Origin: Garicola koreensis
GTDB taxonomy: Bacteria > Actinomycetota > Actinomycetes > Actinomycetales > Micrococcaceae
Assembly (NCBI RefSeq): GCF_014195445.1
Contig: NZ_JACIBT010000001.1
Location: forward strand, 62,001 to 126,000
Length of the DNA: 64,000 nt
Direction: 5' to 3'
This document shows, in pieces, positions 29,329 to 45,961 of the stretch. A program made the translations under genes and the position numbers. Positions within the stretch are counted from its first letter, which is position 1. Every line of letters starts with the position of its first letter. The notes beneath the pieces are model-generated. The model searched no databases, had not been told where the DNA came from, and was given only the letters and a program-made list of their open reading frames with translations.

Positions 29329-29702
29329 TGCAGCCCTTCGGTCTCGGGCGTGACACTGCCGCGCAGCTGTTAATCACCGCCGGTGACAAGCCAGCCCGGC
29401 TGCGCTCCGAGGCCGCTTTCGCTGCCCTGGCCGGGGCCTGCCCGGTCCCAGCATCCTCCGGCAAGACCAACCGGCATCGGCTGAACCGAGCTGGCGACCG
29501 TCAGGCGAACTCTGCGCTCTATCACGTGGTGATCGTATGGATCCGCTATGACCAGTCCACACGGGACTACGTTGAACGTCGCACCGAAGAAGGAAAAACC
29601 AAAATGGATACCATCCGCTGCCTGAAACGCTACCTCGTCCGCCAGCTCTACCCAGTCACCTGCCGCTCCCTCGCCGGCAGAACCCTCACCTCAAACACTT
29701 GA
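29310..29702 (+). pseudogene. IS110-family transposase, C-terminal remnant
   Basis: About 125 residues match the transposase_20 end of IS110 enzymes: TAAQLLITAGDKPARLRSEA, GACPVPASSGKTNRHRLNR, GDRQANSALYHVVIVW and the KTKMDTIRCLKRYLVRQLYP tail. Similarity extends a few codons upstream of ATG 29328. The N-terminal DEDD catalytic half is absent, so the element is dead. It marks the left edge of the island. The 173 bp after it (29703-29875) hold nothing I can identify. Confidence 0.8.
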
Positions 29703-29875: not shown

Positions 29876-30715
29876 TTACCGACAGATCTGTTCCATATAA
29901 CCTAAGCCGGTAATACTTGATCGCACGCGTTCACCCTTGCGTAGGTAACGTTGAGGAACGCGGGCGAAGCCCACACCGGGCGGGGTGCCGGTAAACAGTA
30001 CGTCTCCGGGTAGCAATTCCACGACGGCAGAGAGCTCTTCTATGAGTTCCGCGACCCCGAACACCATGTCTGATACAGGTGAAGACTGCACAATCTCACC
30101 GTCGATTGTACATTGCACTACAGAATCCTCTTGAGCCATGAATTCATCGGGAGTGACTAGAACCGGACCGATCGGAGCGAAGCCGGCAAAGGATTTGCCA
30201 AGTGAGAATTGTGGGGGCTGTCCGCGGAATTGGACATCGCGATCGGAATAGTCCTGCCCGATGGTGAGACCCGCGACATGTTTCCAAGCGTTCTCCGCAG
30301 AAATACCCCGCCCCCCGTTTCCGATGACGGCGACCAGTTCGACCTCCCAATCCACCGAGTTGCTCGTCAGCGCCAAATCTCCGAACGGTTCAACTATCGA
30401 CGACTGGAACTTCGTGAACACAATCGGAAACTCAGGCACGGTGAATCCCGACTCGGCAGCGTGGTCTACGTAATTTAGGCCGATTGCGAGCACCTGCCTA
30501 GGTGCGGGCGAGATAGCCCCCAGGTCGTTCGATGACAGTCGGCCCATTTCGATTGCACCCGATCCGAACGGCTGGGCCCAGCGAAGAAAGTCACTCCATC
30601 TTGGATAAATCTCCTCGATATGCGGCGAGAACTCACCGCCACTTCGCTCGTGGATGTCAACGACTTCATGGGCGCCGAGCAAGAATGCCCGGCCTTTCTG
30701 CACATAAACCTTCAT
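29876..30715 (-). CDS. Fumarylacetoacetate hydrolase (FAH) family protein
   Basis: 279 aa. FAH-family enzymes cleave or decarboxylate beta-diketo or 2-oxo acids with a Mg/Mn site. The core motifs are visible: IGLNYVDHAAESG (about 78-90), the acidic ligands in DWEVELVAVIGNGGRGIS (about 123-140), GQDYSDRDVQFRG (about 154-166), SLGKSFAGFAPIGP (about 171-184) and LLPGDVLFTGTPPGVGF (about 238-254). Start ATG 30715 follows AGGAGA. It is downstream of the RidA/aldolase-like operon but 387 bp away, with its own promoter candidate. The substrate is probably a 2-oxo or acylpyruvate intermediate; this is inference. Confidence 0.85.
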   Translation of the reverse strand: MKVYVQKGRAFLLGAHEVVDIHERSGGEFSPHIEEIYPRWSDFLRWAQPFGSGAIEMGRLSSNDLGAISPAPRQVLAIGLNYVDHAAESGFTVPEFPIVFTKFQSSIVEPFGDLALTSNSVDWEVELVAVIGNGGRGISAENAWKHVAGLTIGQDYSDRDVQFRGQPPQFSLGKSFAGFAPIGPVLVTPDEFMAQEDSVVQCTIDGEIVQSSPVSDMVFGVAELIEELSAVVELLPGDVLFTGTPPGVGFARVPQRYLRKGERVRSSITGLGYMEQICR

Positions 30716-30752
30716 CGGTTCTCCTGTCGTTTCTAGATTCTCCACTTGGCGT

Positions 30753-30786
30753 ATCATAATTTGGGTCCACACCACGATAAGTGTGG
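30753..30786 (-). promoter_or_regulatory. Promoter and operator candidate of the FAH gene
   Basis: On the minus strand, TTATCG (30780-30775) and TATGAT (30758-30753) are separated by 16 bp. The inverted repeat CCACAC-N8-GTGTGG (30767-30786) covers the -35 box, as a repressor site would. Confidence 0.4.
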
Positions 30787-31102
30787 GCTAAATATGCTAT
30801 TCTACGGGCGCTAATTTGTTCCGGGCCGTGCATCCCCACTGACCGTAAATCCCATAGATCCGACAATCGATGCATTATTCGATGTGTGCCGTGGCGCCTC
30901 TAGCGGACTCAGACCCTAGGATCAGGTTCGGGAATCGTTCTAGCATTATTCGGTCACTATGCTTCAAGTCGGGAACAGAATTCGGAATCGCTGTTCGGAT
31001 TGTTCTGTTGCCCCACGGAACCATCAAGGGGAAACTAGGTCTCGCACACGATCGTCTGGAGGGTCGCGCGGTTGGAGAATACAGTTGCCCAACTACTTCA
31101 GA
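30787..31102. other. Gene-free AT-rich gap between RidA and FAH genes
   Basis: No convincing coding frame. It contains an imperfect inverted repeat, GGAACAGAA near 30973 and TTCTGTT near 31003, that could terminate the RidA transcript or bind a regulator. Confidence 0.35.
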
Positions 31103-31480
31103 CTATGCTTCTGGTTCAGCGACGATGGCGTCGATTTCTACATCGAATCCGCGTAGGTTCGCTTGGATCGTGGTGCGAACCGGGAACGGCTCGCTTAGGA
31201 ACTCCATGGCGATTTCATTGAACTCGGCGAAGTCGTCAAGAGTGTTCAGGTAGACGCTGTAGCGAACCGCGTTGTGTAGGCTCGTGCCGGCTGCTTGGGC
31301 GATTGTTTCAAGGTTATGGAATGTAGCCCGCACTTGGTCCGCGAACGTTCCACCGATGCGCTGACCGTTGGCGTCGAACGGTCCTTGGCCCGCGAGGAAG
31401 ACTAAGCCTTCGAACGCGACACCGGGCGAGTACGGTCCCACCGGGGGCGGAGCGAGTTCCGTTTTTATAGCCTTCAGCAT
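31103..31480 (-). CDS. RidA family protein (enamine/imine deaminase)
   Basis: 125 aa, a canonical RidA: APPPVGPYSPGVAFEGLVFL (about 10-29), HNAVRYSVYLNTLDDFAEFN (about 68-87) and the active-site Arg in FPVRTTIQA (about residue 101). It would hydrolyse 2-aminoacrylate or imines released by the PLP enzymes coded upstream in the same operon (D-threonine-aldolase-like, aminotransferase). Start 31480 follows AGGAGA. It is 74 bp downstream of the PLP gene. Base use is lower GC than the core RidA at 15.6 kb. Confidence 0.85.
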   Translation of the reverse strand: MLKAIKTELAPPPVGPYSPGVAFEGLVFLAGQGPFDANGQRIGGTFADQVRATFHNLETIAQAAGTSLHNAVRYSVYLNTLDDFAEFNEIAMEFLSEPFPVRTTIQANLRGFDVEIDAIVAEPEA

Positions 31481-31554
31481 GGGTTCTCCTCTGTTCGTTA
31501 GTTGTGCTCATGGGGTGTAATTCGTCGGTGAAAGACCTCGGCCGGCCCTTGCGT

Positions 31555-32667
31555 TCAGTGCCGACCCAGTGTCGCCCAGCGATCTACGACGAGACCGTTC
31601 TCGACAGCGAAGACTTGAGAGTGCATGTTTGTTACACCACATGCATGATTTGGACGGATCGAGACGAGGTCGCCTACGCGAAGTCCGACACTTCCTCGCA
31701 AAAAGCCGTGCTCCTCGTGCCCCGCAACGACGACACCGGGGCCAGAAGGGACGGTGCCGATCCGTCCATCGCCGTGCATGCTCGCGTCGCTACTCATCGC
31801 CTTTATACCAGCATCGATTAACACAGGCCCGCTTCGTTCAACACTGATGACACGGCTTAGCACCGTCATTGCGGTCTCGTCCGACGCGATGGTCCCGATG
31901 AAGACCTGATTCTCATCCCCATATATATAGGTGCCGGGACGGGCCTCTGTAATACCAGCCACTGTCGGCGCAGATTGTACCCCAGCGGTGGAGCCCACCG
32001 AAACGCTGTCCAACCCAATGCCTCCGGTGCGTATTTCCTCCGCCACCTCAGCTAGGAGTGCTCCGGCGGCTATCCCCGTGCGCTCTCGAAGAGCATGATC
32101 GGTTCCAACACCCTGCACATGGCCCTCATGCGTAAAAATGCCTTCTAGGTGGATGCCCGTCATCCGGGATAGTTCCTTGGCAACCTCGAGAGCCGCCTCA
32201 GGCTCCACGCCGGTTCTGTTAACACCCGTATCGACTTCTAATCGCACCTCGACCTCAATTCCACGCTCTGTGGCTGCGGTGGCGAGTGGCCGAGCAGCAG
32301 CAACGGAGTCGGGTCCGACGATCAATCGGGTTCGCTGGGCCAAATCGAGGGCTGCCGCTACCCTATACGGGCCGACTGTCGGATACGCCCAGAAGATGTC
32401 AGTGAACCCTGCGTCTGCCAAAGCGACCGCCTCTTGAGCAGTGGCCACGGTGTGCCCAGAGGCGCCGGCTTCGAGTTGAAGACCCGCAACCTGCGCGGAC
32501 TTGGTCGTCTTCCAGTGCGGACGGAGCGCAACATCAAGCTTGTCTGCATGTGCCGCCATTGCTGCAATGTTTCTCTGAACAGTCGGTAGGTCGATCAACA
32601 CAACCGGGCTCGGTAGATCTTCGACGCGCGCGCCAATGAAGTCATGATCAGTCATTAGTTTCGACAT
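31555..32667 (-). CDS. D-threonine aldolase / D-serine dehydratase-like PLP enzyme
   Basis: 370 aa of the alanine-racemase-N fold (DSD1/D-threonine aldolase type). PLP Lys is in ALRPHWKTTKSAQ (about residue 52). The C-terminal D-ser_dehydrat domain carries GHEEHGFLRG (about 310) and the metal-binding His/Cys of RPNHACGVTNM (about 340). These enzymes cleave D-3-hydroxyamino acids to glycine and aldehyde or deaminate D-serine. Start ATG 32667 is chosen for GAGG about 10 nt upstream; 32682 and 32655 are alternatives. It lies just downstream of a deletion scar with OppF and Gfo/Idh remains. Confidence 0.8.
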   Translation of the reverse strand: MSKLMTDHDFIGARVEDLPSPVVLIDLPTVQRNIAAMAAHADKLDVALRPHWKTTKSAQVAGLQLEAGASGHTVATAQEAVALADAGFTDIFWAYPTVGPYRVAAALDLAQRTRLIVGPDSVAAARPLATAATERGIEVEVRLEVDTGVNRTGVEPEAALEVAKELSRMTGIHLEGIFTHEGHVQGVGTDHALRERTGIAAGALLAEVAEEIRTGGIGLDSVSVGSTAGVQSAPTVAGITEARPGTYIYGDENQVFIGTIASDETAMTVLSRVISVERSGPVLIDAGIKAMSSDASMHGDGRIGTVPSGPGVVVAGHEEHGFLRGSVGLRVGDLVSIRPNHACGVTNMHSQVFAVENGLVVDRWATLGRH

Positions 32668-32678
32668 TCTTCGTGCCC

Positions 32679-32885
32679 TCATAGTAGGTCGAGAGGATAA
32701 TGGCAGGCAGTGGCTTTTCCAGCGCACAGCGTTCCGTAGCAAGCCAGCAGCGCATGCGGAAGCTGCAACCGTCGGCGGGATTCGCGGTCGACGGCAGATC
32801 TCCCTGCAAGACAATCTGCTCTCGTATGCCATGTGCTGATGCCGCCAACGCCGATGATCGCGACTCCTAGTGGCTGATTAGACAT
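32679..32885 (-). pseudogene. Fusion scar: Gfo/Idh N-terminus joined to OppF C-terminus
   Basis: From ATG 32885 the frame reads MSNQPLGVAIIGVGGISTWH, a Rossmann start of a Gfo/Idh oxidoreductase. A second minus frame then reads EQIVLQGDLPSTANPADGCS then FRMRCWLATERC, the C-terminal oligopeptide-transporter ATPase domain. Back in the first frame it ends TACHYPLDLL-stop, the usual OppF end. So one or more deletions joined the start of an oxidoreductase gene to the end of an oppF gene and shifted frames. It sits between the deacylase and PLP-enzyme genes. Confidence 0.7.
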
Positions 32886-34468
32886 GAGTTGCCCCTCTGG
32901 TTCGAGTTGGTCAGCACCGTGCCTGGGCGGGCTGTGGTGCCGGCCCTGTCGCGAAGTACGAGGGTGCCGTTGGTCATGACGTGGTCGAGCCCGACGGCCC
33001 AGGTGGCCGGAGAAGCGAACGTCGCTGCGGAATCGAACCGCGCATCCTCGATTACTGAGATGTCCGCCCGGTGCCCGGCTTCGATACGCGCGGTGATCCC
33101 GGCCCGCTCGCCTGGGCCCTCGGTCATGCGTCTTACAGCCTCGCCAATCCAGACACCTGCATCGCGCATGCGTCGATAGGATGCGGGAAATGCGCCCCAC
33201 GACCTAGGGTGGGCAACAGATGCTCGGTGCCCGAACCCAAGTGCAGATCCATCGGATGCGATGCTGACCCACGGTGTACGCATAGCCAGGTCGACATCGC
33301 TCCAGACACCGCTTTCCACAGCAACATCGACGTTTCCACCGCAATCGACCAGCAGCGCGGTGAGCCAACCCCATGGATCCGCATCGATGTCGCTGAGCGA
33401 CAACCCCACAGCATCAGGTCGTGCCGTTGCCTTCATGATGATGATCGAGTCAGTTGTATAGCCGGTTTCGCGGAACATGCGAGCGACATCTGACGGATTG
33501 GCTTTGGCCGTAGCCAGGACAGCGGACGGACCCTGCCCGCGCATTTCGCTCGGCAGCAGTTGTAGGAGTGTTGTATGTCCGTGCACGTAGGGGTACGAAT
33601 CTGCGGCGATGTCCTGTTCGAGACGAAGATCTTCGATGTACTCAAGTACATCCTGGAACGCGGTCCCGTAACCGATGCTGCGGAGATGAGAGATCTGAAG
33701 CCTGGCTCCCGCTTTGCGTGCTGGCAAGGCCACTTCATTGATAGCGCTGATGAGTGACGATGCCCGGTAGTCACTTAAGTGGACTGAGAGGACGCCGTCG
33801 TGCTTCGCGACGGTCTGGGCGATGCGCGTGAGCTCCGCGGTGGATGCCCCCTCGCCTGGCGCGTACATCAAGCCAAGGCTCACCCCGACGCACCCGGAAT
33901 CCATAGCCGTGTGCAGCTCACGGGTCATGCTGTCGAGCTCGTCATCGGCCAGAAAACGCCCCGCTTCGCCCGCAATGGCGAAACGCGCCGCGCCGTGTCC
34001 CAACTGCATCGCGACATTAGTAGCAGTGGGGGTACTTTCCAAGGCCTCACGCCAGCCCTGCACGTCGGTCCACGTCCAATCGAGATCGGGGACGACATCA
34101 ATGGTACTGATGACGCGTTTGAGACCAGCGCGGTCGCCACCCGACGGCGCGGGGCTCATTCCGCAGTTGCCGACGACCTCGGTAGTAATGCCCTGACCGA
34201 CGCGGCTTTCATTTCCCGGGTAGGCGATCAGACTGAGATCAGAATGACAGTGAATATCGACGAAACCCGGGGCGATTATGCGATCTACGCAATTCACGAC
34301 TTCTGCGTCGTACCCACTCTCAGGCCGCTGCTCGTACGGCACGACCGCCTCGATGACCTCACCTGAAACTACGACGTCTGCAGGTTGTAGATCGGCGCCG
34401 CTGCCGTCGGCGACGAGACCCCCAGTGAAAACTGTGCGTGTGTGTGCAGAGGTAGCCATGTCATGCAC
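32867..34468 (-). CDS. N-acyl-D-amino-acid deacylase (amidohydrolase superfamily)
   Basis: Hydrolyses N-acyl-D-amino acids to free D-amino acid and carboxylate. 533 aa. The metal site HxH is in APGFVDIHCHSDLSLIAYP (about 67-85), followed by GITTEVVGNCGMSPAP (about 93-108), whose Cys is a ligand in D-aminoacylases. Further ligands are in LQISHLRSIGYG (about 257) and the late Asp in VSIASDGSALGFGH (about 404). Start ATG 34468 overlaps the aminotransferase stop by 8 bp; ATG 34459 is possible. Central to the predicted island pathway; specificity cannot be read from sequence. Confidence 0.88.
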   Translation of the reverse strand: MHDMATSAHTRTVFTGGLVADGSGADLQPADVVVSGEVIEAVVPYEQRPESGYDAEVVNCVDRIIAPGFVDIHCHSDLSLIAYPGNESRVGQGITTEVVGNCGMSPAPSGGDRAGLKRVISTIDVVPDLDWTWTDVQGWREALESTPTATNVAMQLGHGAARFAIAGEAGRFLADDELDSMTRELHTAMDSGCVGVSLGLMYAPGEGASTAELTRIAQTVAKHDGVLSVHLSDYRASSLISAINEVALPARKAGARLQISHLRSIGYGTAFQDVLEYIEDLRLEQDIAADSYPYVHGHTTLLQLLPSEMRGQGPSAVLATAKANPSDVARMFRETGYTTDSIIIMKATARPDAVGLSLSDIDADPWGWLTALLVDCGGNVDVAVESGVWSDVDLAMRTPWVSIASDGSALGFGHRASVAHPRSWGAFPASYRRMRDAGVWIGEAVRRMTEGPGERAGITARIEAGHRADISVIEDARFDSAATFASPATWAVGLDHVMTNGTLVLRDRAGTTARPGTVLTNSNQRGNSCLISH

Positions 34469-35849
34469 GCTTCCCTAAGTCTTCAAAGAGTCCTTCGCGA
34501 GCCATTTGGCCGAGCACCTCATCCGCCTGTGACAAGGTGCGGTCGATGTCCTCGTCGGTGTGCGCGAGAGAGATGTGATTACGTTTCAGCGCCATCGGAT
34601 ACATGAACGATCCCTTGTCGATCATGCGGCGATGAAATGTCTCATAGCTGGCGTCGTTGTTGTGCAACAGGTCGCGATAGCCCTGGACCTCACGGTCGAG
34701 GAAGTAGGTCACGAAAATTGAGCCGATACCGGAGACAACTGCTGGGATTCCGTGTTCCGTGGTGATGGAGCGAAGCCCCTCGCGCATCCTGTCGCCAAGT
34801 CTGTAAACGTGTTCGTAAAACCCAACCTTAGGGTCTCGCAGTACTTTGATGGTCGCGATGGCCGCCGCCATCGACACCGCGTTGCCGTTGAAGGTACCAG
34901 CGAGCATCACAGCGCCTCCCGTCGGGGTGAAGTGCTGCATTACCTCTGCGGACCCAGCGAGGCCGGCAACCGGATAGCCGTTACCCATAGCCTTACCGAA
35001 AGTTGTGAGGTCTGGGGTGACGCCGCAGAGCTCCTGATACCCGCCGATTGCATGCCTGAACCCCGTGATCACCTCGTCGAAAACTAATAGCGAGCCGTTT
35101 TTCGTCGTGAGAGAACGTAGTCCTTCTAGGAACGCCTGTTCGGGGATAAGTGAGCCCACATTATGGGGGACGGGCTCAATGATCACCGCAGCGATCCGGT
35201 CTGGGTATTGATCGAACAGCTCCTCGACGCTTGCTAAGTCGTTAAACTCGGCGATCAACGTGTGGTTCAAAGCGTCGTTAAGAATTCCGCTGGAGTTCGG
35301 GTCGAATTTCCATGCGTGCTCGGGGCTTGAGATCACGTTTCGAGCGATCGCGTCATAGGAGCCGTGAAAGCAGCCCTGAAACTTCACGATGAGGTCGCGA
35401 CCAGTTGTGCCTCGCGCGAGACGGATTGCCTGCAGAACCGACTCTGAACCGCTCATTGTCGAGATCACCATCTCCGCCGAAGGAATAGCGTCAATGGTCA
35501 GTTCGGCCGCCTCGACTTCCAGGTCCGTAGTGCCAAGTCCGACGAGATCCATGTCACGAATCGCTTCGGTGATCGCACCATTGACGCGTTCGTCCGCATG
35601 CCCGAGAAGGATCGCGCCGAAGGCTGCATGGTAGTCCGTGTAGACGCGTCCATCCGCATCAGTGATCGTCGAGCCCTTGGCAGAAGAGAATGCCCATGGG
35701 GATCCAATCGCCCGCGTCGCTGAGTTCACCCCTCCGGGAATGATCGCAGAGGCTCGCCCTGCTAGCTCTCGGGCGCGACTCGTCGTCGAGTCGCGCTGTG
35801 GTCCGATGGTCGTTGTGGTGTTGGACATGGGGATACTTGGTCCGTTCAT
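34461..35849 (-). CDS. Class III aminotransferase, glutamate-1-semialdehyde aminotransferase-like
   Basis: 462 aa PLP enzyme of fold type I. Seen are GGVNSATRAI (about 39), TMSGSESVLQAIRLAR for PLP phosphate (about 131), LLVFDEVITGFR with the PLP Asp (about 253) and the Schiff-base Lys in TFGKAMGNGYPVAGLAG (about 284). It resembles GSA-2,1-aminomutase but sits in a catabolic operon, not with heme genes, so it is probably an amino-acid or amine transaminase or mutase. ATG 35849 lies 10 bp after the amidohydrolase stop; ATG 35828 is an alternative. Neither has a strong ribosome-binding site. Confidence 0.82.
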   Translation of the reverse strand: MNGPSIPMSNTTTTIGPQRDSTTSRARELAGRASAIIPGGVNSATRAIGSPWAFSSAKGSTITDADGRVYTDYHAAFGAILLGHADERVNGAITEAIRDMDLVGLGTTDLEVEAAELTIDAIPSAEMVISTMSGSESVLQAIRLARGTTGRDLIVKFQGCFHGSYDAIARNVISSPEHAWKFDPNSSGILNDALNHTLIAEFNDLASVEELFDQYPDRIAAVIIEPVPHNVGSLIPEQAFLEGLRSLTTKNGSLLVFDEVITGFRHAIGGYQELCGVTPDLTTFGKAMGNGYPVAGLAGSAEVMQHFTPTGGAVMLAGTFNGNAVSMAAAIATIKVLRDPKVGFYEHVYRLGDRMREGLRSITTEHGIPAVVSGIGSIFVTYFLDREVQGYRDLLHNNDASYETFHRRMIDKGSFMYPMALKRNHISLAHTDEDIDRTLSQADEVLGQMAREGLFEDLGKRA

Positions 35850-35859
35850 TTCTGGTTGG

Positions 35860-36723
35860 TCATTTACTGGGATTCGTGAGTCCGAGCAGGTTTAATGCAT
35901 CCTGGCTGATCACGGATTCGATCGTGTCCTCGGTTACGTACGGCAGGTTGCCTGCTCGGAAACCACCGATGCTCCTGAAGTTCTGCAGCGCTTTGCTTGG
36001 GCTCCACAGCGGATAGTCGGAACCGAACAGCAGCTTGTCAACAGTTCTCCATTCTTGTGCCCCAACGAGAGCGAAGAATGCGTCCATAGGCCGTGAAGGC
36101 ACACCCGAGACGTCGGCGAACACATTTGGGTTCTTACGCAATACGACGTTCGTGTCTCGTTGCCATGGATGCCCCATGTGCGCCATGATCTGCACTAGAT
36201 TCGGGTGGCGGCGGGCGACCTCATCGACGACCAGCGGCTGAGTGACCGAAAGACGCCCGATAGGGCTGGGCGTAGCACCCATATGCCAAAGAACAACCAT
36301 CCCGTTGGCGGCAAGAATCGTGTAAAACTCGTCGAATTCATCCGAAAGGGGGTCAAAGAGCGCCAACACGGGATAGAGTTTCACCCCCTGAAAGCCGAGC
36401 GAGATCGCTTCTTCGAGTTGCTCACGCCAGTCGGCATCCAGCGGATCGATCGAGGCGAACGGGATTGTCGGGGTCTCCAGCTTGCTGACGAAGTCGGCAA
36501 CGAAAGAGTTTGGCGTGCGGACCCCGGCCTGGGATGCGGCCAAGCCGAACGTGATAGCGATGTCGATACCGCCCTCGCGCATAGCTGTGTCGAAGTCTTC
36601 GGGGCTAACTACCGGGTAAGGCGTACCGCCGTATGCAGGGGCCCAGTGCTCCCTATGCTCGTTTCCCCAATGTTCGGGCTGGTGGCAGTGCGTATGCACG
36701 TCGATAATCATGTGATTCCCCAT
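35860..36723 (-). CDS. Amidohydrolase family 2 (TIM-barrel metal hydrolase or decarboxylase)
   Basis: 287 aa. Amidohydrolase_2 (PF04909-type) motifs: IIDVHTHCHQPEHW with the HxH ligands (about 6-19), QGVKLYPVLALFDP (about 115), VVLWHMGATPSP (about 143), IMAHMGHPWQRD (about 180) and the late Asp in KLLFGSDYPLWSP (about 233). Members include 2-pyrone-4,6-dicarboxylate lactonase and ACMSD-like decarboxylases. It overlaps iclR by 16 bp, so it is the second gene of the leftward operon. Substrate unknown. Confidence 0.82.
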   Translation of the reverse strand: MGNHMIIDVHTHCHQPEHWGNEHREHWAPAYGGTPYPVVSPEDFDTAMREGGIDIAITFGLAASQAGVRTPNSFVADFVSKLETPTIPFASIDPLDADWREQLEEAISLGFQGVKLYPVLALFDPLSDEFDEFYTILAANGMVVLWHMGATPSPIGRLSVTQPLVVDEVARRHPNLVQIMAHMGHPWQRDTNVVLRKNPNVFADVSGVPSRPMDAFFALVGAQEWRTVDKLLFGSDYPLWSPSKALQNFRSIGGFRAGNLPYVTEDTIESVISQDALNLLGLTNPSK

Positions 36724-37514
36724 CGAGTTCGTACGGATTCCAAAGCCTCGTTAAGGCGTGGCAAATTCGCAATTCTGTGTGCAGTTTGACGGAGGTCCTC
36801 GACGATTCGTGACACGTCAGTCTCGGGCATCTCCCCGAGCGGCCCCGAGACGCTAAGGGCAATGTCGAAGGGAGCTCCGGTCGGGACCAGAACAGCCAGG
36901 CAGCGCACACCACGATTTCGCTCCTGATCATCCACACTGAAGCCGTGTTTACGCACACGCTCTAGTTCTACGTCGAGTCGTGCTCGCGAGGTGAGGGTTC
37001 GCGGCGTAAAGCTCTGCCAAGTCTTCTCCGGTGGAAGATGTTGATCTAGGTTATCGGCTTCAAGCCGGGAGAGAAGCATTTTGCCAAGACCCGTGCAATA
37101 GGTGTGGTCAAGAAATCCGCCGACTGCAATACGCAACGCACGGGCCGGTTCTTCCACACACAGGTGCAATACAGACTGTCCTTGCAACACCCCCATGTTG
37201 GCGGTGAATCCTAAATCGTCTGCCAAAGACTTGAGTGTGTTTGAAACTAAGTCCTCAAACTCGACTGTTTCGGCGGACTCTGCGATCTCGAAGATGCTGG
37301 ACCCGATTGCGTACAGCGGCAGAGTTCCGGATTTCGCCACGAACCTCTCCTCTTCCATGACCGAAAGTAAACGGAGAAGCGTGGGCTTTGGAAGATCCAT
37401 GGTTTTCGCGAGGTCTGCGAGCGACATCGGGGCCTGGGTCTGACCTAGCACACGCAATGCCGTCAGGGCGCGGGTTAAGCCCTGCGAATGATACGACTGT
37501 GCGTTTGATGGCAT
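36708..37514 (-). CDS. IclR-family transcriptional regulator
   Basis: 268 aa. An N-terminal winged HTH (about 10-72; SLADLAKTMDLPKPTLLRLL is the helix-turn-helix) joins the IclR effector domain (about 90-255; GGFLDHTYCTGLGKMLLSRL, GFSVDDQERNRGVRCLAVLV). It is the first gene of the leftward catabolic operon and probably controls both divergent operons in response to a pathway metabolite. The start is strongly supported: TTGACA, a 17-bp spacer and TAATGA end 6 nt before ATG 37514, a leaderless layout. An inverted-repeat operator fills the spacer, predicting autoregulation. Confidence 0.9.
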   Translation of the reverse strand: MPSNAQSYHSQGLTRALTALRVLGQTQAPMSLADLAKTMDLPKPTLLRLLSVMEEERFVAKSGTLPLYAIGSSIFEIAESAETVEFEDLVSNTLKSLADDLGFTANMGVLQGQSVLHLCVEEPARALRIAVGGFLDHTYCTGLGKMLLSRLEADNLDQHLPPEKTWQSFTPRTLTSRARLDVELERVRKHGFSVDDQERNRGVRCLAVLVPTGAPFDIALSVSGPLGEMPETDVSRIVEDLRQTAHRIANLPRLNEALESVRTRWGIT

Positions 37515-37520
37515 ACTCGA

Positions 37521-37549
37521 TCATTACGTGGAACGACGTTCCATGTCAA
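37521..37549 (-). promoter_or_regulatory. iclR promoter with operator inside the spacer
   Basis: Minus strand: -35 TTGACA (37549-37544), 17-bp spacer, -10 TAATGA (37526-37521), then 6 nt to ATG 37514. The spacer holds TGGAACGACGTTCCA (37529-37543), a perfect inverted repeat with 6-bp arms and a 3-nt centre. It can be read as 10-bp arms ACGTGGAACG/CGTTCCATGT around one base, with one mismatch. The TGGAA/TTCCA pattern is known for IclR-type sites. Confidence 0.75.
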
Positions 37550-38067
37550 GCAGTTCTTCAAATCCCCCACGTATGAGTGGGATTGACTGGCACCGTTCCT
37601 TGCCACGACCGTTTGTGCCCACGAGCACGATGCGCCGGGATGGGGTTAGCAGCTAGGGACTGATTACGGTGCGATCCGTTCTATCAGGAACGACAGTCCC
37701 AGGCTGAAAACTTTCCATGCGTTTACCGTCTATAGGCCCTGTCTATGCTTGATCTTACCGCTTAATAGTACACAGTGAAGTGTCAACCATTAATGGTTCA
37801 CACCCCTCCAGCATCCTTGATGCACCCCATCTTTTGCTTCGGTCCAGGTTTGTCTTGGCGGTACTTCTTCATCCAGTTCCCCGAGGTGCCAAAGTTTCAG
37901 GCAAACTTCTCGGCATTCCTGATGATCGGGTGTGGACTAGGGATGACCAGTGGGTTGCCTCGGCTTTGAACTGCGGCGTGACTTCCGACGCGATGATCAC
38001 GCGACGGAGGCGGCTCTGCGCAGTCACCGTTCCACGTCGAGTTGCGAAAACTCTACTAAAGAATCTA
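37550..38067. other. Divergent intergenic region with palindromes
   Basis: Between the two operons. It contains AACCATTAATGGTT (37785-37798, perfect palindrome), CGTTC-N6-GAACG (near 37677-37692) and a half-site CGTTCCACGT (38028-38037) matching the iclR operator arm at 9 of 10 positions. An unrecognised frame (below) overlaps it. It probably holds regulator sites for the rightward operon. Confidence 0.4.
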
Positions 38068-38094
38068 TTGACCAACCCTGACAAACTCGAGTAG
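37780..38094 (+). pseudogene. Possible carbamoyltransferase-like remnant
   Basis: A 104-codon open frame from GTG. Only VLLHPVPRGAKVSGKLLGIP and the following DDRVW are suggestive: aspartate/ornithine carbamoyltransferases have an HPxPRG...VS...RVW.Q block near their C-terminus. The rest does not fit and codon use is poor, so this could be chance. Confidence 0.2.
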
Positions 38095-38097
38095 ATT
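38068..38097 (+). promoter_or_regulatory. Promoter of the rightward operon
   Basis: TTGACC (38068-38073), 18-bp spacer, TAGATT (38092-38097), then 7 nt to ATG 38105. The predicted transcription start coincides with that ATG, so the 41-aa leader ORF would be leaderless. Confidence 0.65.
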
Positions 38098-38104
38098 TCC
38101 TCAC

Positions 38105-38230
38105 ATGAAACACCGTGTCACGTCAAATCACTCGCAACGTCTTCCCCCCCCTCACTTGGAGGAGGGTATCAAGCACACCATCGCCGAAGTTGTTCTTGGT
38201 GAAATGACGCGCGAGGGCTCCTGTCAATGA
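38105..38230 (+). CDS. 41-aa leader ORF coupled to the Gfo/Idh gene
   Basis: ATG 38105 is 7 nt downstream of a near-consensus -10 box, the leaderless spacing seen across this window. The 41-residue product starts MKHRVTSNHSQR, contains an acidic helix-like stretch (HLEEGIKHTIAEVVLGEMTR) and ends GSCQ. Its TGA overlaps the ATG of the next gene (ATGA), so its translation could drive that of the oxidoreductase. It may be a regulatory leader or the C-terminal remnant of a longer lost protein. No family recognised. Confidence 0.45.
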   Translation: MKHRVTSNHSQRLPPPHLEEGIKHTIAEVVLGEMTREGSCQ

Positions 38231-39168
38231 GCGCTTTGAGCGTGATCGTGGTGGGCGCGGGGGCGATTGGTCGTCGACACATCAAGGCGGTGAGGCAAGC
38301 CGGCGACACCGTGACGGCGGTTGTTGACACGGACATTGTGGCAGCGCGTGAAGCGGCGAGACCGGCCGGGTCAGTGGCCCAGACGAGTCTCGCTAAGACT
38401 TTGGCGGATGAGGACGCGGATGTGGCTGTCATCGCTACTCCCTCCGGTCAGCACCTCGATCAGTCGGTACTTGCAGTGCGGGCTGGGCTCGATGTTCTTG
38501 TTGAGAAACCGCATCGGGTGCCCGGAGAAGTAGCGGCAGGTCTGCGAGCCTCGCTTGGGGGACGGCGCTACTTCGTGGCGATGACAACGCGACACTGGCC
38601 CGGCATCGAGGCCACAGCTCACGCGATAGCCGATGGCAGCTTGGGGCAGATTCTTACCTACACTGATCGAATGCACTTCCGGTTGGCGGAAACTGACTTG
38701 CCCCCGTGGTACTTCGACGCCACACTCAGTGGCGGCGGCGTCTTGCTGACCAACGGCGTGCATGCGATCGACCGGGCCCGAGCGTTGGTCGGACCCGGAT
38801 TGGAGCTAGACGGGGCCCGGTTAGTCCGCGTATTTCCCAGCCACCGATGTGAAGATTCAGCTGAAATCCAATTGCGAAACCACACCGGTATCCCGGTGCA
38901 TCTGAGTCTGCTTTGGTCTCCATACGCCTCCGGAAACACGGGGTTGACGGTCAATGGGACCCGCGGCAGCGCCGTCGTTCACATGGATGGCAGCTGGCAG
39001 CTGATAACGGGTCAGGAAGAACAATGCGGCCCTGCAATCGAGCCCGATGAGCCCTTTGCGCGGCAGTGGCAAGCCTTCAAGGCCAGTCGTTCCGGCTTCG
39101 ACCTGGAGGATTTGGAGCCGACCCTCGGCTTAGTCGAACGGATTTATAGGAGATACACATATGCCTGA
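38227..39168 (+). CDS. Gfo/Idh/MocA family oxidoreductase
   Basis: 313 aa NAD(P)-dependent dehydrogenase. Rossmann motif VVGAGAIGRRHI (about 8-19), the EKP motif (LVEKPHRVPGE, about 90), GGGVLLTNGVHAID (about 172-185, with the catalytic-position His) and a C-terminal beta-sheet domain ending LVERIYRRYTYA. Substrates in the family are sugars, cyclitols and related alcohols. The ATG overlaps the leader ORF stop, with GAGGG about 9 nt upstream. It overlaps the next gene by 8 bp. A relic of the same family lies in the opposite operon at 32.88 kb. Confidence 0.85.
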   Translation: MSALSVIVVGAGAIGRRHIKAVRQAGDTVTAVVDTDIVAAREAARPAGSVAQTSLAKTLADEDADVAVIATPSGQHLDQSVLAVRAGLDVLVEKPHRVPGEVAAGLRASLGGRRYFVAMTTRHWPGIEATAHAIADGSLGQILTYTDRMHFRLAETDLPPWYFDATLSGGGVLLTNGVHAIDRARALVGPGLELDGARLVRVFPSHRCEDSAEIQLRNHTGIPVHLSLLWSPYASGNTGLTVNGTRGSAVVHMDGSWQLITGQEEQCGPAIEPDEPFARQWQAFKASRSGFDLEDLEPTLGLVERIYRRYTYA

Positions 39169-40381
39169 CATCAGCATGCTCATATACCCTTGGGACATTG
39201 AGACCGACGGCGTCGACGAGGTGGTCGGGACGCTGTCCGAACTTGGCGTGACTGGACTTACAATCGCGGCGGCTTATCACTCTGCTGAGGTTCTTGCCCC
39301 CAGGCGTACCTCACGAGTCTTTACCCGAGCTGAACCTAACAGCGTTCATCTGCCATTGGCGCGCGACGCGTTCTCGGGTCTCTCCGTTCCGCCTTCTTCG
39401 ATGGCGACAAACAGCCCTGACCTCTACCCAGAGCTGAAGGCGGCGACGGATGCAGCGGGTATTCGACTTGATGGATGGGTCGTGGCGTTGCATAACTCGC
39501 GGCTGGCCACACAGCACCCCGAATGTGCGATACTGAGCTGTTTCAACGATCGCTTCACCCATGGACTTTGTCCGAATAACCCCGCAGTTCGCAGGTATGT
39601 CAGCGAATTGTTTGGAGGAATCGCGGGCAGCGGACTCTTCGAACGCGTGCTGGCGGAGAGCATTTCATACCTACTGTATGGTCATGGGCATCCGCATGAA
39701 CTATGGGGTGCGCGGCTAGACACGACAACGCGCTACCTCCTTTCACTTTGCTTCTGCGAGCACTGCGCCGAAAGCGGTGCCGAGCGAAATATTGACGTGG
39801 AGTCTCTCCGATCCAAGGTGGCCGCCGAGCTGACCCGCACTTGGAATCAGTCGTACCCCGCCGGAAGAGACCATGATGAGGGCCTTGAACTAGCATCTCT
39901 GCATGTCAATTGGCCAGATCTCGCTGCATATACGCGCATGCGTCTCGACACGGTGACCTCCTTGGCGGCTACGACTGCGCATGTCTGCCACAACGAGAGG
40001 GTCCATTTTGACTTGGGTGCTGCAGTGTGGGGGCGACCCAGCCCCCTCAACTGGCTAGAAGGCGTTGATATCAGTTCTTCATTTGATATTGCGGACAAGT
40101 TTATGTTGCAAAGCTATTACCCCAGAGGCGGGGAGGTAGCACGCGAAATCGACCATACGTTTGGTCTGGCTGCGGCCCGTGATCTGCCCATTGGCGAACT
40201 GGCCGTAGCAATGACTCTGTGGCCTGACCATCACAATACGAGGGAAGGGTTCCTTAGCAAAGTCAACCTCGTGCGCGATGCAGACATCAACACCCTGGCT
40301 CTGTATAACTACAGCACAGCCACGAGGGATACCTTGTCCTGGGTTGCTGACGCGGTCGCCGTGATGAAAGGAGAACGATGA
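39161..40381 (+). CDS. Unrecognised 406-aa protein with CFCEHC motif (TIM-barrel-like)
   Basis: Cytoplasmic, no signal peptide. The N-terminus (ISMLIYPWDIETDGVDEVV, GVTGLTIAAAYHSAEVL) looks like the first strands of a TIM barrel, as in glycoside-hydrolase-like proteins. A central RYLLSLCFCEHCAESG (about residues 189-204) gives a Cys-x-Cys-x2-Cys cluster seen in some uncharacterised GH-like proteins. Conserved-looking acids include ESISYLLYGHGHPHELWGAR (about 167-186) and HFDLGAAVWGR (about 285). AGGAG precedes ATG 39161, which overlaps the Gfo/Idh stop. The tight link suggests a pathway enzyme acting with the dehydrogenase; activity unknown. Confidence 0.6.
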   Translation: MPDISMLIYPWDIETDGVDEVVGTLSELGVTGLTIAAAYHSAEVLAPRRTSRVFTRAEPNSVHLPLARDAFSGLSVPPSSMATNSPDLYPELKAATDAAGIRLDGWVVALHNSRLATQHPECAILSCFNDRFTHGLCPNNPAVRRYVSELFGGIAGSGLFERVLAESISYLLYGHGHPHELWGARLDTTTRYLLSLCFCEHCAESGAERNIDVESLRSKVAAELTRTWNQSYPAGRDHDEGLELASLHVNWPDLAAYTRMRLDTVTSLAATTAHVCHNERVHFDLGAAVWGRPSPLNWLEGVDISSSFDIADKFMLQSYYPRGGEVAREIDHTFGLAAARDLPIGELAVAMTLWPDHHNTREGFLSKVNLVRDADINTLALYNYSTATRDTLSWVADAVAVMKGER

Positions 40382-40472
40382 GCAGGACCTAAACGAAACG
40401 CCAGCTTTGGTCGTAGACCCGACGGGACTCAGGACCGACCTTAGCTCCATGGTTCCCACATCGTTTGGCTGA
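40378..40472 (+). pseudogene. D-threonine-aldolase-like N-terminal relic
   Basis: ATG 40378 overlaps the previous stop (ATGA) but meets a stop after four codons. In the +2 frame the sequence continues NETPALVVDPTGLRTDLSSM, the TPALVVDLxxLxxNIxxM start of D-threonine-aldolase/alanine-racemase-N proteins, then stops at 40472. So a third gene of the rightward operon has been lost. An intact member of that family is in the opposite operon. Confidence 0.55.
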
Positions 40473-40532
40473 GGCAGATCGTCGCCCACACTTCAAACTT
40501 TGATGATGAGGTCGCGCGGTTGTAGCTCACTC

Positions 40533-40576
40533 TTGACGAAGGCGCATTTGACGAAACATAGTTTCCGGTCAATATG
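40533..40576 (+). promoter_or_regulatory. Tandem promoter candidates upstream of the Opp operon
   Basis: TTGACGAA occurs twice, at 40533 and 40548. The first pairs with CATAGT (40557-40562, 18-bp spacer) and the second with CAATAT (40570-40575, 16-bp spacer). Downstream, GACATT-N11-AATGTC (40590-40612) could form a leader hairpin. Confidence 0.45.
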
Positions 40577-40637
40577 GCGGCAAAGGAGCGACATTGGTTG
40601 ATGCCTAATGTCAACAACAACTCGATAAGGATCTATT

Positions 40638-42167
40638 GTGGTACTAAACATGCGCAGGACTAAAAAAACTGTAATAGCAGCGATTATAGCGGCCTCATTT
40701 ACATTAGTGGGTTGCTCCGGCGGTTCATCTGGGGGGTCACCCACGGGAGACAATCAGAATGCGTCAATACAAAACGAGACTGTGGTCGCGTTGCCAGAGG
40801 ATATTGACAATTTTGATCCGCATACAAACCAACTCAACACCTACCTTTACGCCGTCCGTTCTCTAGTTTTCAACGGACTGGTTAGATATGATGCCAGTCT
40901 CAATATCGAACCAGATCTGGCTACGTTCGACGTCAACGCTGACGCCACGGTTTTCACTTTTGAAATCGACCCCGAGGCGGTTTTCCATGACGGAACTTCC
41001 GTTAATGCGGAGGCGGTCATCGCGTCGTTCGAGCGTGCTGCAGGGGAAGAGAACTCCATCTGGGCTCCGCGGCTTGCCGATGTTGCGAGCTACGAGAGTC
41101 CCGATGAGCATACGGTCGTGATCACACTCAATGACCCAAATGCGGCGTTCCTCGCAGGAATTGTTGATATATCGATTATTGCTCCTTCGAACTTCGAGGA
41201 CGTCGACTCTGCCCCCGTAGGCTCGGGCCCCTACAAGTTTGTCTCCTGGGAAGCAAACCAGCAGATCGAATTGGAGCGCTTCGACAATCACTTCGGCGAG
41301 CCGTCGCCCACCGAAACTATTATCTACCGGCCTATCAGTGATCAACAGGTCGCTCTGAACAATCTTTACAGCGGGAGCATCGACATTATCGCCAGCGCAT
41401 CGGTTAACACCCGCGCCCAAGTCGACACCGACCGGGCCGAGATCATACAGCCGGACGCATCCACTAGTCTGTCGCTCATCGAATTCAACTCTTCGGGTAC
41501 GCTTGACGACCCTCAGGTTCGACGAGCTCTTGCTCATACGCTAGACAAGGAAGCGATCCAAGAGGTGGCATACGGCGGTGAGGGATCGCTGAGCTACAGC
41601 CCCTTTGCAGAGACCAGCTGGGCCTATACGAATGTTGAAGACTACGAGTACGATCTCCAGAGGGCCGAGGACCTACTAGCCGAGGCTGGCGCATCAGACC
41701 TCACGTTTACTCTCGAAGTACCGAGCGGATTCCCGGACGCGGAGCAGATCGCGCGAGTATGGCAAGCTTCGCTCGCCGAGGTCGGTGTCAGCATGACGCC
41801 AGAGATTAACGAGAGTTCCGTCTGGCTCGACGCCTATGTCTCACGTGACTACGACGCAACCTGGAACGTGTTCAACGTGGGTGGAGATCCGCACTCGTTC
41901 TTCGACGTCATTATGACGCCACACCTGGACGACGACTACGACAACCCGAGGATGAAAGAACTGATCGCTGAGGCAACAAGCACGTCAGATCAAGCCAAAA
42001 GAGCGGACATATATGCGGAACTGCAGCAGGTTCTTGTTGAGGAACTTCCCGTTATGGTCGTACAGTCGATCCCTGTCGCTTCGATTATCGCCGATGACGT
42101 GAGGGGCTATGAGATGAACCCGCTCGGATGGTCACTGCTCGATAATGTCGCAGTCGAGCAAGAATGA
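40638..42167 (+). CDS. ABC transporter substrate-binding lipoprotein, family 5 (Opp/Dpp-like)
   Basis: 509 aa. A signal peptide with lipobox LVGC (Cys about residue 26) anchors the binding protein outside the membrane. SBP_bac_5 features: LPEDIDNFDPHTNQLNTYLY near 52, LVFNGLVRYDASLNIEPDLA near 77, FHDGTSVNAEAVIASFERA near 118 and APVGSGPYKFVSW near 195. Binds peptides or peptide-like compounds; here probably the acylated substrate of the island enzymes. GTG 40638 has AAGGA upstream; ATG 40650 would still leave a normal signal peptide. First gene of the transporter set. Confidence 0.9.
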   Translation: MVLNMRRTKKTVIAAIIAASFTLVGCSGGSSGGSPTGDNQNASIQNETVVALPEDIDNFDPHTNQLNTYLYAVRSLVFNGLVRYDASLNIEPDLATFDVNADATVFTFEIDPEAVFHDGTSVNAEAVIASFERAAGEENSIWAPRLADVASYESPDEHTVVITLNDPNAAFLAGIVDISIIAPSNFEDVDSAPVGSGPYKFVSWEANQQIELERFDNHFGEPSPTETIIYRPISDQQVALNNLYSGSIDIIASASVNTRAQVDTDRAEIIQPDASTSLSLIEFNSSGTLDDPQVRRALAHTLDKEAIQEVAYGGEGSLSYSPFAETSWAYTNVEDYEYDLQRAEDLLAEAGASDLTFTLEVPSGFPDAEQIARVWQASLAEVGVSMTPEINESSVWLDAYVSRDYDATWNVFNVGGDPHSFFDVIMTPHLDDDYDNPRMKELIAEATSTSDQAKRADIYAELQQVLVEELPVMVVQSIPVASIIADDVRGYEMNPLGWSLLDNVAVEQE

Positions 42168-42179
42168 GGCGCGCTAGGA

Positions 42180-43139
42180 ATGCCAGCAATAACGAGAACT
42201 TTTTTAGAGATCGCAAGACTCGTGTTCGTCCTGTGGCTGGTGTCCGTGTTGGCGTTCCTGGCTCTCCGCCTGACGCCTGGGGACCCTGCCGTGCTGCTGC
42301 TCGGGCCCCAAGCGGGACACGAAGATGCTGAGGCGTTGCTCGCCCAAGTACGGACGGAAATGGGGTTCGACCAGCCGTGGATAGTCCAGTACGGGATATG
42401 GATTGGCGACATACTGCGCGGTGATTTCGGTAACTCCAGCCGAAGTGGCGTTTCAGTCCTCTCGCTAATCGTCAATGCAGTCCCGCCCACGCTCTGGCTT
42501 GTCCTACTTTCAGTGATGGTGTCAGTGCCGCTCTCAATCGCCATTGGGATGTGGGCCGCGAGTCATCGAAACGGCGCGGTGGACCGTGGGGTGCGGGTCG
42601 TAACGACCATGTCGATCGCCATACCCGGTGTTTGGCTGGGGCTGATTCTAATCATCTTCTTTTCTGTGAATCTCGGTGTCCTGCCCTCAGGGGGGTACGT
42701 CTCTCCGCTCATCGACCCTGGCGGATTCATCAGGCACATGATATTGCCGGTGGCTACGCTCTCAGTGTTTCTGACGGGAGTGCTTACGCGCTTCGTTTAT
42801 GCGGAAGGCTCGGACGTGCTTCGGCAGGACTATATGCGGACGGCGACAGCTATGGGGATTCCCCGGCGAACGAGAATATTTAGGTATGCAACAAGAAATG
42901 CAGTGCTTCCGATGATTACGATCGTTGGCGTCCAAATCGGTGTGTTGGTGGGAAATGCTGTACTAGTCGAAGCAGTATTTGGTATTGGCGGCCTTGGGCA
43001 ATTGTTGCTCAGCAGCGTACTCAATCGTGACTATCAGGTCGTCCAGGGTGCGGTGCTAATCACCACTGTTGTCGTAGTGCTGGTTGGATTCCTGTCCGAC
43101 ATGGCGAACCGCCTTATAGACCCAAGGATTGCCAAATGA
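42180..43139 (+). CDS. ABC transporter permease (DppB/OppB type)
   Basis: 319 aa inner-membrane permease with about six helices: RLTPGDPAVLLLG in the N-terminal periplasmic part (about 36-48), the long second helix WLVLLSVMVSVPLSIAIGMW (about 105-124) and the EAA loop RQDYMRTATAMGIPRRTR (about 216-233) that docks the ATPase. It lies 12 bp after the binding-protein gene and overlaps the next permease by 4 bp (ATGA). Confidence 0.92.
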   Translation: MPAITRTFLEIARLVFVLWLVSVLAFLALRLTPGDPAVLLLGPQAGHEDAEALLAQVRTEMGFDQPWIVQYGIWIGDILRGDFGNSSRSGVSVLSLIVNAVPPTLWLVLLSVMVSVPLSIAIGMWAASHRNGAVDRGVRVVTTMSIAIPGVWLGLILIIFFSVNLGVLPSGGYVSPLIDPGGFIRHMILPVATLSVFLTGVLTRFVYAEGSDVLRQDYMRTATAMGIPRRTRIFRYATRNAVLPMITIVGVQIGVLVGNAVLVEAVFGIGGLGQLLLSSVLNRDYQVVQGAVLITTVVVVLVGFLSDMANRLIDPRIAK

Positions 43140-43969
43140 TGCGGTGGTTAAAGGGAGTCGGGGTTGCCCGTCTTTTACTAATAGCGACAGGGATCTTGGT
43201 GCTCACGGTTGCCCTGTGGCCGGAATTGTTCGTGACGCATGATCCGACTGCGGTTGATTCGGACTCGATCCTGCAGTCCGCCTCATGGGAACATCCGTTG
43301 GGGACGGATGAAGCTGGTGCAGATGTGCTCGCACGACTCGTCCATGCGACCCAGCTCGAGGTCGTGATCGCGGCGGGCAGTGTCATAATTGCGCTTGTAA
43401 TTGGCGTACCATCTGGATTGCTCGCCGGCAACAGTGGCAAGCTTATCGATGGTGGAATATCCAGCGGGGCTTCGGCCATTCTGGCCTTTCCAATGGTGCT
43501 TTTCGCGATCCTAGTAGTGTCGAGCTTTGGAACGACAGCTCTGACGCTGGTCGGTATTATTGGGTTTGTCTTCGCCCCGCGGGTATTTGTTCTCGTGCGT
43601 GCGCAAACAAAAGCGCTGAAAGAACGGGAGTTTGTGGTGGCAGCCCGGGTGACCGGAATCTCGCCGAGGCGTACAATGGCGCGTCATGTCCTTCCAAATA
43701 TGGCAGGCCCGCTTTTCACCCTCATCCCGCAGCTGATGGCGGAAGCGCTCCTCATCGAGGCTGGCCTCAGCTTTTTGGGACTGGGAGTTCAACTCCCGGA
43801 TTCAACCTGGGGGACCATTCTCGAGAGCTCGAAGGACTACTACGTCACGTCGCCCGGTTATGCGGTCGCAGCTGGTCTGACGATCACGATAGCGGCCGGA
43901 CTTCTGATGGCCTCCGGAGAACTTGCTGCTGAGTCTTTCAATCCCCTGAAGAAGAGAAGGCAAAAATGA
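43136..43969 (+). CDS. ABC transporter permease (DppC/OppC type)
   Basis: 277 aa, partner permease. HPLGTDEAGADVLARLVHAT (about 51-70) is the classic OppC signature, and REFVVAARVTGISPRRTMAR (about 164-183) is the EAA loop. FLGLGVQLPDSTWGTIL (about 219-235) is also typical. ATGA overlaps on both sides couple it to the first permease and to a decayed deacylase frame that follows. Confidence 0.92.
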   Translation: MMRWLKGVGVARLLLIATGILVLTVALWPELFVTHDPTAVDSDSILQSASWEHPLGTDEAGADVLARLVHATQLEVVIAAGSVIIALVIGVPSGLLAGNSGKLIDGGISSGASAILAFPMVLFAILVVSSFGTTALTLVGIIGFVFAPRVFVLVRAQTKALKEREFVVAARVTGISPRRTMARHVLPNMAGPLFTLIPQLMAEALLIEAGLSFLGLGVQLPDSTWGTILESSKDYYVTSPGYAVAAGLTITIAAGLLMASGELAAESFNPLKKRRQK

Positions 43970-44268
43970 GCTACTTCGCGGTACGTGGCGGAATCGCCGT
44001 CGACGGCACCAGAACAGGGCCCATAGGATCCGTCGGTTTCGTTGCAGACGGTCGAGCGCAGTCTATGGCACGACCCGAAGAACCCTCAGGTTCGACGAAC
44101 GGCGGTTTCAGAGGCTCTCTGATACCTCCTGGTTCCATCGACACTCCTACGAACTGCGACCTTGACTGCATTTGCTATCCGGACGCCGATACGCGTTCTG
44201 CAGGGTGTGCCACCGCAACGTGCTATGGGCCGACGTGCCGAACGAGACTCGTCCCGGAACAGTGCTGA
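43966..44268 (+). pseudogene. Decayed N-terminus of an N-acyl-D-amino-acid deacylase
   Basis: A 100-aa frame overlapping the permease stop (ATGA). It reads VRGGIAVDGTRTGPIGSV near the start and LIPPGSIDTPTNCDLDCICY then PDADTR later, aligning with the deacylase pattern PGFIDxHxHCDLxxxYPDxxxR. Both metal-binding His are replaced (TPTN), the NCGMS region is corrupted (YGPTC), and a stop at 44268 ends it. The stop overlaps the ribosome-binding site of the next gene, so translation of this remnant may still deliver ribosomes to the ATPase. An intact homologue is at 32.9 kb. Confidence 0.7.
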
Positions 44269-44278
44269 GGAGGTTTAC

Positions 44279-45951: not shown

Positions 45952-45961
45952 GAATGTCCGT

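Follow-up and report, generated by a model that had tools for sequence, protein, structure and literature searches.

E. coli IclR acts by promoter occlusion and represses its own gene, and the same mode of action is proposed here for an IclR-family protein encoded in a 64,000-nucleotide stretch of Garicola koreensis DNA, the whole of which is referred to below as the window. In the part of the study by Suvorova and Gelfand (2021, PMC8222616) that is drawn upon here, the motif of the group 2 IclR proteins is given as TGRAACAN1-2TGTTYCA, with -22 as the commonest position of the site centre, and the operators of E. coli IclR and KdgR are given as TGGAAATNATTTCCA and RWWGAAACGNCGTTTCAKKA, respectively. 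The sequence TGGAACGTCGTTCCA, which is located upstream of the iclR gene in the window, agrees by eye with this group 2 consensus at 12/14 positions (A7 is G and T9 is C), and its centre is likewise at -22 from the iclR ATG. As both the motif and the position of the centre fit the type described in that part of PMC8222616, the site as such is an ordinary one and its kind is already known.

The interpretation that we favour, with a probability of about 0.87, is that TGGAACGTCGTTCCA is IclR's own operator inside the iclR promoter, where the protein would repress its own gene by occlusion, and that with a second operator both of the divergent operons in this region are probably under its control. 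The conserved site, the promoter geometry, the gene order and the homology of a scar ORF, which are described below, were computed from the sequences.

The iclR promoter and the leftward operon

The features of the iclR promoter and of the leftward operon are as follows (the orthologues and clade B are described in the next section).

37544..37549, minus strand: -35 box TTGACA, as in 7/7 clade B promoters
37529..37543, minus strand: putative IclR operator TGGAACGTCGTTCCA in the spacer, a perfect palindrome; 11+/14 site at 20/20 orthologous iclR genes
37520..37525, minus strand: -10 box AATGAT after an 18-nt spacer (promoter scan; NANNNT at the same spacing in 7/7 clade B promoters)
36708..37514, minus strand: iclR, IclR-family regulator, probably leaderless (Pfam; 18 orthologues at 47-73% identity)
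35860..36723, minus strand: amidohydrolase (Amidohydro_2), overlapping the iclR end; directly after iclR in 20/21 orthologous loci
34461..35849, minus strand: class III aminotransferase, glutamate-1-semialdehyde aminomutase-like (domain/profile matches)
32867..34468, minus strand: amidohydrolase (Amidohydro_3; domain/profile matches), which we take to be D-aminoacylase-like
31555..32832, minus strand: alanine-racemase-N / D-serine dehydratase-like enzyme, which in NCBIfam scores best against the BhcC aldolase, though under the cut-off
31103..31480, minus strand: RidA-family protein (domain/profile matches)
29876..30775, minus strand: fumarylacetoacetate hydrolase-like protein, after a 327-nt gap; operon membership uncertain

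Upon direct reading of the minus strand, TTGACA (37549-37544), a 17-nt spacer (37543-37527), TAATGA (37526-37521) and TCGAGT (37520-37515) precede the iclR ATG (37514-37512), and all of these elements, together with the 6 nt before the ATG and the 15-bp palindrome, are at the places where an earlier note on this DNA had described them. TTGACA and TAATGA were taken in that note as the two promoter boxes, and the first of these is retained as the -35 box. However, TAATGA is one base out of register for a -10 box, and it agrees with TATAAT at just 2/6 positions. As the pattern NANNNT is kept 18 nt past TTGACA in 7/7 members of clade B, the -10 box is assigned to AATGAT, which the promoter scan also picked. 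An earlier start of iclR is ruled out by the in-frame TAA TGA immediately upstream of its ATG.

TGGAACGTCGTTCCA is a perfect odd 15-bp palindrome with 7/7 pairs matched, and the ACA of the TTGACA box doubles as the left flank of the extended operator. Since there are 14 perfect 15-bp palindromes in the window, the palindrome by itself proves little, and the excess over chance lies in its conservation at the orthologous promoters (20/20). No second place for TGGAACGTCGTTCCA was found elsewhere in the window with up to 3 mismatches, and the genome search for the same palindrome that had been suggested earlier gave one exact occurrence of TGGAACGNCGTTCCA in the 2.25-Mb genome of the species (80% complete), after which the closest matches have 2 mismatches. 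Upstream of the iclR promoter, the minus-strand sequence GGAACGGTGCCAGTCAA at 37583-37599 is operator-like with a shortened centre and may be a decayed operator site; a half-site GTTCCATGTCAA is present at a roughly similar place in the loci L047 and L052. The divergent intergenic region also contains a 24-bp near-perfect palindrome, GTGTCAACCATTAATGGTTCACAC, at 37780-37803, whose 20-bp core recurs nowhere else in the genome at up to 3 mismatches and which is possibly the operator of another regulator.

The iclR ORF encodes 268 aa, and its matches to HTH_IclR (1.7e-11; 44.2 bits, cut-off 22) and IclR_C (2.4e-27; 96.1 bits, cut-off 24) place it in the IclR family. From iclR through the RidA gene the intergenic gaps are <=74 nt, and a 327-nt gap precedes the next gene. 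The GC content of the island from 29876 to 46000 is 56.8% compared with 67.4% in the rest of the window, and a search of the family's 294 other genomes gave no close match to its iclR (E 1e-30; best identity about 35%) or its oxidoreductase (E 1e-60). Based on this low GC content and the lack of such matches, the island was probably acquired horizontally. At its left edge (29328-29702) there is a short ORF, which by eye resembles the C-terminal portion of an IS110-type transposase.

Operator sites in the orthologous operons

Within the species' own family (295 genomes including its own, E 1e-30) no orthologue of this iclR was detected, the matches being paralogues with 31-35% identity, and a plasmid search gave only IclR proteins, the family and plasmid matches together being 28-35% identical. 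No match was obtained in a first scan of genome contigs with IclR alone or in a plasmid search with the amidohydrolase (E 1e-60). The order-level search of 396 genomes identified 3 iclR orthologues (50-52% identity), and a profile search of genome contigs with an Amidohydro_2 alignment of the window and these 3 relatives led to 174 relatives, the best 80 of which (79 loci) were kept and the best 31 loci (L039-L069) compared. Of these 31, the 21 loci L039-L059 contain orthologous operons, and their hosts include Leucobacter, Microbacterium, Agrococcus, Salinibacterium, Pseudolysinimonas, Ruania, Brachybacterium and Actinotalea; the 3 order-level loci recur here as L042, L045 and L056 and were counted once. 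The iclR gene lies directly before the amidohydrolase gene in 20/21 of them, L048 being the exception. In L060-L067 and L069 iclR follows an Amidohydro_3 gene, L068 shows no iclR, and L027-L038 are distant relatives (36-40% identical). The recognition-helix stretch PK(P/S) and R48 are common to the window's IclR and 18 aligned orthologues, which is in keeping with one binding specificity.

For scoring, an operator consensus of 14 positions was derived from the window alone. Between -60 and +20, the best site reaches 11+/14 at 20/20 orthologous iclR genes and 12+/14 at 18/20 (L039 and L050 reach 11), compared with 0.53% and 0.03%, respectively, of random 80-bp stretches from the same loci (n=3569). 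None of the 28 IclR paralogues reached 10/14 in the 120-bp stretch around the match start, these starts being match starts rather than verified ATGs; the L051 start is uncertain. Over the whole of L039-L059 there are 31 sites at 12+/14, 30 of which lie between 180 nt upstream and the iclR start, with the remaining one between iclR and the amidohydrolase gene in L051. L048, which has no iclR match, has no 12+/14 site, its best site (11) being within the amidohydrolase gene. No 10+/14 site is present near the match start in L027-L038, and L060-L067 and L069 have no 10+ site between -120 and about +30 relative to iclR. That IclR would bind this site, repress its own gene and control the leftward operon, as the earlier note had predicted, is strongly supported by the fact that the site accompanies the iclR orthologues and is absent (at 12+/14) from L048.

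The flanking pairs are C..G in 30/34 and A..T in 29/34 distinct sites. In the same 34 sites, 177/238 cells are symmetric compared with a shuffle mean of 177.3, and as this dyad covariation shows no excess over the shuffles, the symmetry is not independently proved by compensatory change. A further site resembling the operator, with its start 136-180 nt ahead of iclR, is seen in L042 (792-806), L044 (170-184) and L024 (5239-5253), and also in L040, L041 and L051, and these sites probably sit at the promoter of a divergent gene. About 42-57 nt upstream of iclR in L057 and L058, the palindrome TGGAATTAACATTCCA combines identical outer arms with a centre lengthened by one base.

The window, L039, L047, L050, L052, L053 and L054 form a single branch (clade B; support 100/99) in the IclR tree, for which Jiangella proteins served as the outgroup and from which L046 (broken frame) and L051 (uncertain start) were left out. 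In 7/7 members of this clade, TTGACA is followed by the 15-mer, 3 nt, the -10 hexamer, 5-7 nt and the ATG. The -10 hexamers are AATGAT in the window, AAGTAT in L039, CAGGCT in L047, CAGGGT in L050 and L052, CATGTT in L053 and CAGCAT in L054, all seven having A as the second and T as the sixth base; both TTGACA and NANNNT at 18 nt are thus present in 7/7. The relatives' 30-nt core is identical to that of the window at 23-25/30 positions, and the 60 nt upstream of the core at 14-26/60. The earlier view of iclR as a leaderless gene is supported for the clade by the distance of 5-7 nt between the -10 box and the ATG. In the window the -10 box is weak and its 5-nt distance to the ATG is the shortest of the seven, both of which count against the favoured interpretation. 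The iclR transcript probably begins at or beside the ATG and would be leaderless.

In 13 relatives, designated class A, the start codon is inside the operator, the commonest form of which is ACATGGAACAGCGTGCCACGTC. When these are aligned at the start codon, T(-13) is found in 12/13, A(-12) in 13/13 and T(-8) in 12/13. The pattern TANNNT is located exactly 7 nt before the start codon in 12/13 (the exception is L049), and this placement suggests that the class A iclR genes are leaderless. A further site near -45, where the -35 box is expected, is present in 8 relatives. Four clade B members, viz. L047, L050, L052 and L053, have both the spacer and the start-codon operators, due to which these are regarded as separate sites; in the window, L039 and L054 the start-codon operator is absent and the spacer site is relied upon. 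An idea that the window operator is a start-codon site displaced upstream by a 30-nt insertion, initially hinted at by an in-frame ATG at 37544 that reads MERRST and then two stops, was dropped because both operators occur together in those four members.

In the tree, some forks of which are weakly supported, the start-codon site is present in the first-splitting branches (L059, L056, L055, L057 and L058), in clade B's sister group and in 4/7 members of clade B itself, and based on this distribution it is probably ancestral. This suggests a stepwise movement of the operator, from over the start codon, to a pair of sites, to the promoter spacer alone. Codon 2 is GAA in 11/11 class A genes (L058 was dropped as a near-copy and L046 is outside the alignment), and the five other invariant Glu columns have GAG in 7-10/11. 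Invariant codons are 3/8 in the first 16 columns compared with 6/60 elsewhere, although these numbers are small and are confounded by start-proximal A-richness. Where the start codon is part of the operator, codon choice would be linked to regulation.

The rightward operon and its scar ORF

At the head of the rightward operon there is a second putative operator (38106), which went unmentioned in the earlier note. The features of this operon are listed below.

38068..38073, plus strand: -35-like TTGACC (consensus match only; not conserved in relatives)
38092..38097, plus strand: -10 box TAGATT, 7 nt ahead of the ATG as in class A (promoter scan, relatives)
38105..38230, plus strand: 41-codon scar ORF, iclR 5' end plus aminotransferase 3' end (blastn/tblastn, alignment scores)
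38106..38120, plus strand: second putative IclR-type operator TGAAACACCGTGTCA over the scar start codon (class A columns; blastn to iclR starts)
38227..39168, plus strand: Gfo/Idh/MocA oxidoreductase, first intact rightward gene (domain match, locus comparison)
39161..40381, plus strand: conserved protein, no Pfam/NCBIfam match at E 0.001 (locus comparison)
40638..42167, plus strand: ABC solute-binding protein (SBP_bac_5; domain match)

By eye, permease- and ATPase-like ORFs follow the SBP_bac_5 gene to 45951. The site at 38106 matches 24/28 conserved class A columns and is the top place on both strands of the window, over which the mean score is 6.9 (sd 2.2); the second best place is the iclR operator (19/28). 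A degenerate extended pattern, written after both sites were known, matches the 38106 site with 0 mismatches, the iclR site with 1 and other places in the own genome only at 3, the reversed control giving 4 matches within 3 mismatches.

The scar ORF consists of the first 13 iclR codons joined in frame to the aminotransferase 3' end, and it begins MKHRVTSNHSQRL where the relatives have MEQRATSYHSQGL. At the DNA level it shares 80-86% identity, across 34-45 nt, with the best relatives' promoter and iclR start (lowest blastn E 1.8e-5, L041 and L044). The tblastn match of its end to the aminotransferase C-terminus is weak (54% over 24 aa to L040; the E value of 0.001 probably covers two pieces together), and due to this residues 14-41 were tested separately. 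Aligned with the last 40 aminotransferase residues of 20 relatives, they gave a median score of 39, with 7009 control stretches from the same loci averaging 16.6; 7/20 scores were above every control and 19/20 in the top 0.3%, L053 (3%) being the one that was not. The frame is open from the iclR start through to the overlap with the oxidoreductase gene, whose ATG overlaps the scar TGA, as is also the case in L046, L057 and L058. The order iclR-amidohydrolase-aminotransferase-oxidoreductase is seen in L039, L046, L055, L057, L058 and L059. The simplest reading is that the scar arose by an in-frame deletion of most of iclR, the amidohydrolase gene and most of the aminotransferase gene, with the promoter and operator being kept. 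We consider it somewhat better than an even chance that two operons of the same family were joined here, the rightward one having kept its leaderless promoter, start-codon operator and a chimeric leader, with the surviving IclR controlling both; the firmer aminotransferase half of the scar, based on the alignment of residues 14-41, raised our confidence in this slightly, from a level only just above even. As the scar ORF has a like operator across its start codon, the rightward operon is probably under the control of the same IclR, i.e. one IclR probably controls both divergent operons.

The main alternative here is that the sequence at 38106 is a decaying relic that plays no part in regulation and that IclR controls the leftward operon only. 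The 41-codon ORF is indeed a remnant, the 15-mer differs from the relatives' commonest form at 3/15 positions, and TTGACC is not conserved in relatives. However, TANNNT, the 7-nt spacing, the ATG and the operator (24/28 columns) have all been kept and the frame is still open, which makes this alternative rather unlikely.

Regulation by IclR and comparison with known systems

According to the favoured interpretation, an IclR dimer would bind TGGAACGTCGTTCCA, which is situated wholly between TTGACA and AATGAT, and as the bound dimer would occlude RNA polymerase, IclR would repress itself and the co-directional catabolic genes. A ligand would release IclR from the operator, and the repression would span iclR to at least the RidA gene, plus the rightward operon. 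It is from the sequence comparisons that we infer the binding, the sign of regulation and the transcription start. The earlier statement that any protein bound in the spacer must block the polymerase is too strong, as MerR-type activators bind promoter spacers, and IclR-family members can activate as well as repress. However, MerR operators sit in 19-20 nt spacers, whereas the spacer here is 18 nt in 7/7 clade B members, which is a normal rather than a stretched length, and the class A site over the predicted transcription start is in a blocking position. Hence, although BhcR is proposed, in the portion of PMC11323563 used here, to be a self-repressor and an activator of a divergent operon, it is improbable that the spacer-bound IclR activates by MerR-like remodelling or plays a dual role.

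It is very doubtful that the palindrome is bound by another regulator, one that controls iclR by coincidence. The palindrome is connected with IclR solely through association and the motif, but the motif accompanies this group of iclR orthologues in several families of actinobacteria, is absent from 28/28 IclR paralogues and, at 12+/14, from the iclR-less L048, and fits the group 2 consensus in the cited part of PMC8222616. A chance coincidence of TTGACA and the palindrome, one of 14 such palindromes in the window, can be dismissed, as the arrangement is kept in 7/7 clade members with upstream flanks that are much less conserved. Repression by IclR of its own gene through promoter occlusion, as the favoured interpretation predicts, is well supported.

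The IclR protein of the window shares its domains and a 15-bp TGGAA-N5-TTCCA operator with E. coli IclR (operator as given in the part of PMC8222616 used here). However, it scores 104.4 bits against the glyoxylate-bypass IclR equivalog NF008601 (cut-off 380), its gene sits with amidohydrolase, aminotransferase and transporter genes, and its operator is inside the -35/-10 spacer. The KdgR operator in the same source shares with the window site a CGNCG centre, which accounts for the departures at A7 and T9, and has similar arms, but the window protein reaches 67.4 bits against the KdgR cut-off of 275 and is associated with other genes. The nearest named regulator is BhcR of Paracoccus denitrificans, the best NCBIfam match (NF045644) of the window protein, although the score of 140.2 bits is below the equivalog cut-off of 350. 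As far as the consulted part of PMC11323563 goes, BhcR similarly belongs to a divergent cluster whose aldolase (BhcC) is a relative of the one in the window, whereas its predicted palindrome is upstream of the bhcA -35 box. GylR of Streptomyces clavuligerus is likewise an actinobacterial IclR-family self-repressor, with protection from +11 to +57, but its 18-bp motif, GGTCGGCATTGTCGAACA, is a different one (both from the part of PMC9732521 considered).

Among the literature matches listed, no title names this operon, and none reports on the scar operator or on the start-codon operators of this group. What is new here are the class A operators, which span the start codon of a gene that is probably leaderless, and a rightward operon that keeps its promoter-operator on a 41-codon scar. 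Together they define a specific and testable regulon, with one IclR, two operators and two divergent operons, for a catabolic island that is uncharacterised and has relatives in Microbacteriaceae as well as in other Actinobacteria. While the window site is of the group 2 type with the commonest centre of -22, the start-codon sites of the relatives, with a centre at about +8, are outside the -3..+1 peak given in the part of Suvorova and Gelfand (PMC8222616) that is compared here.
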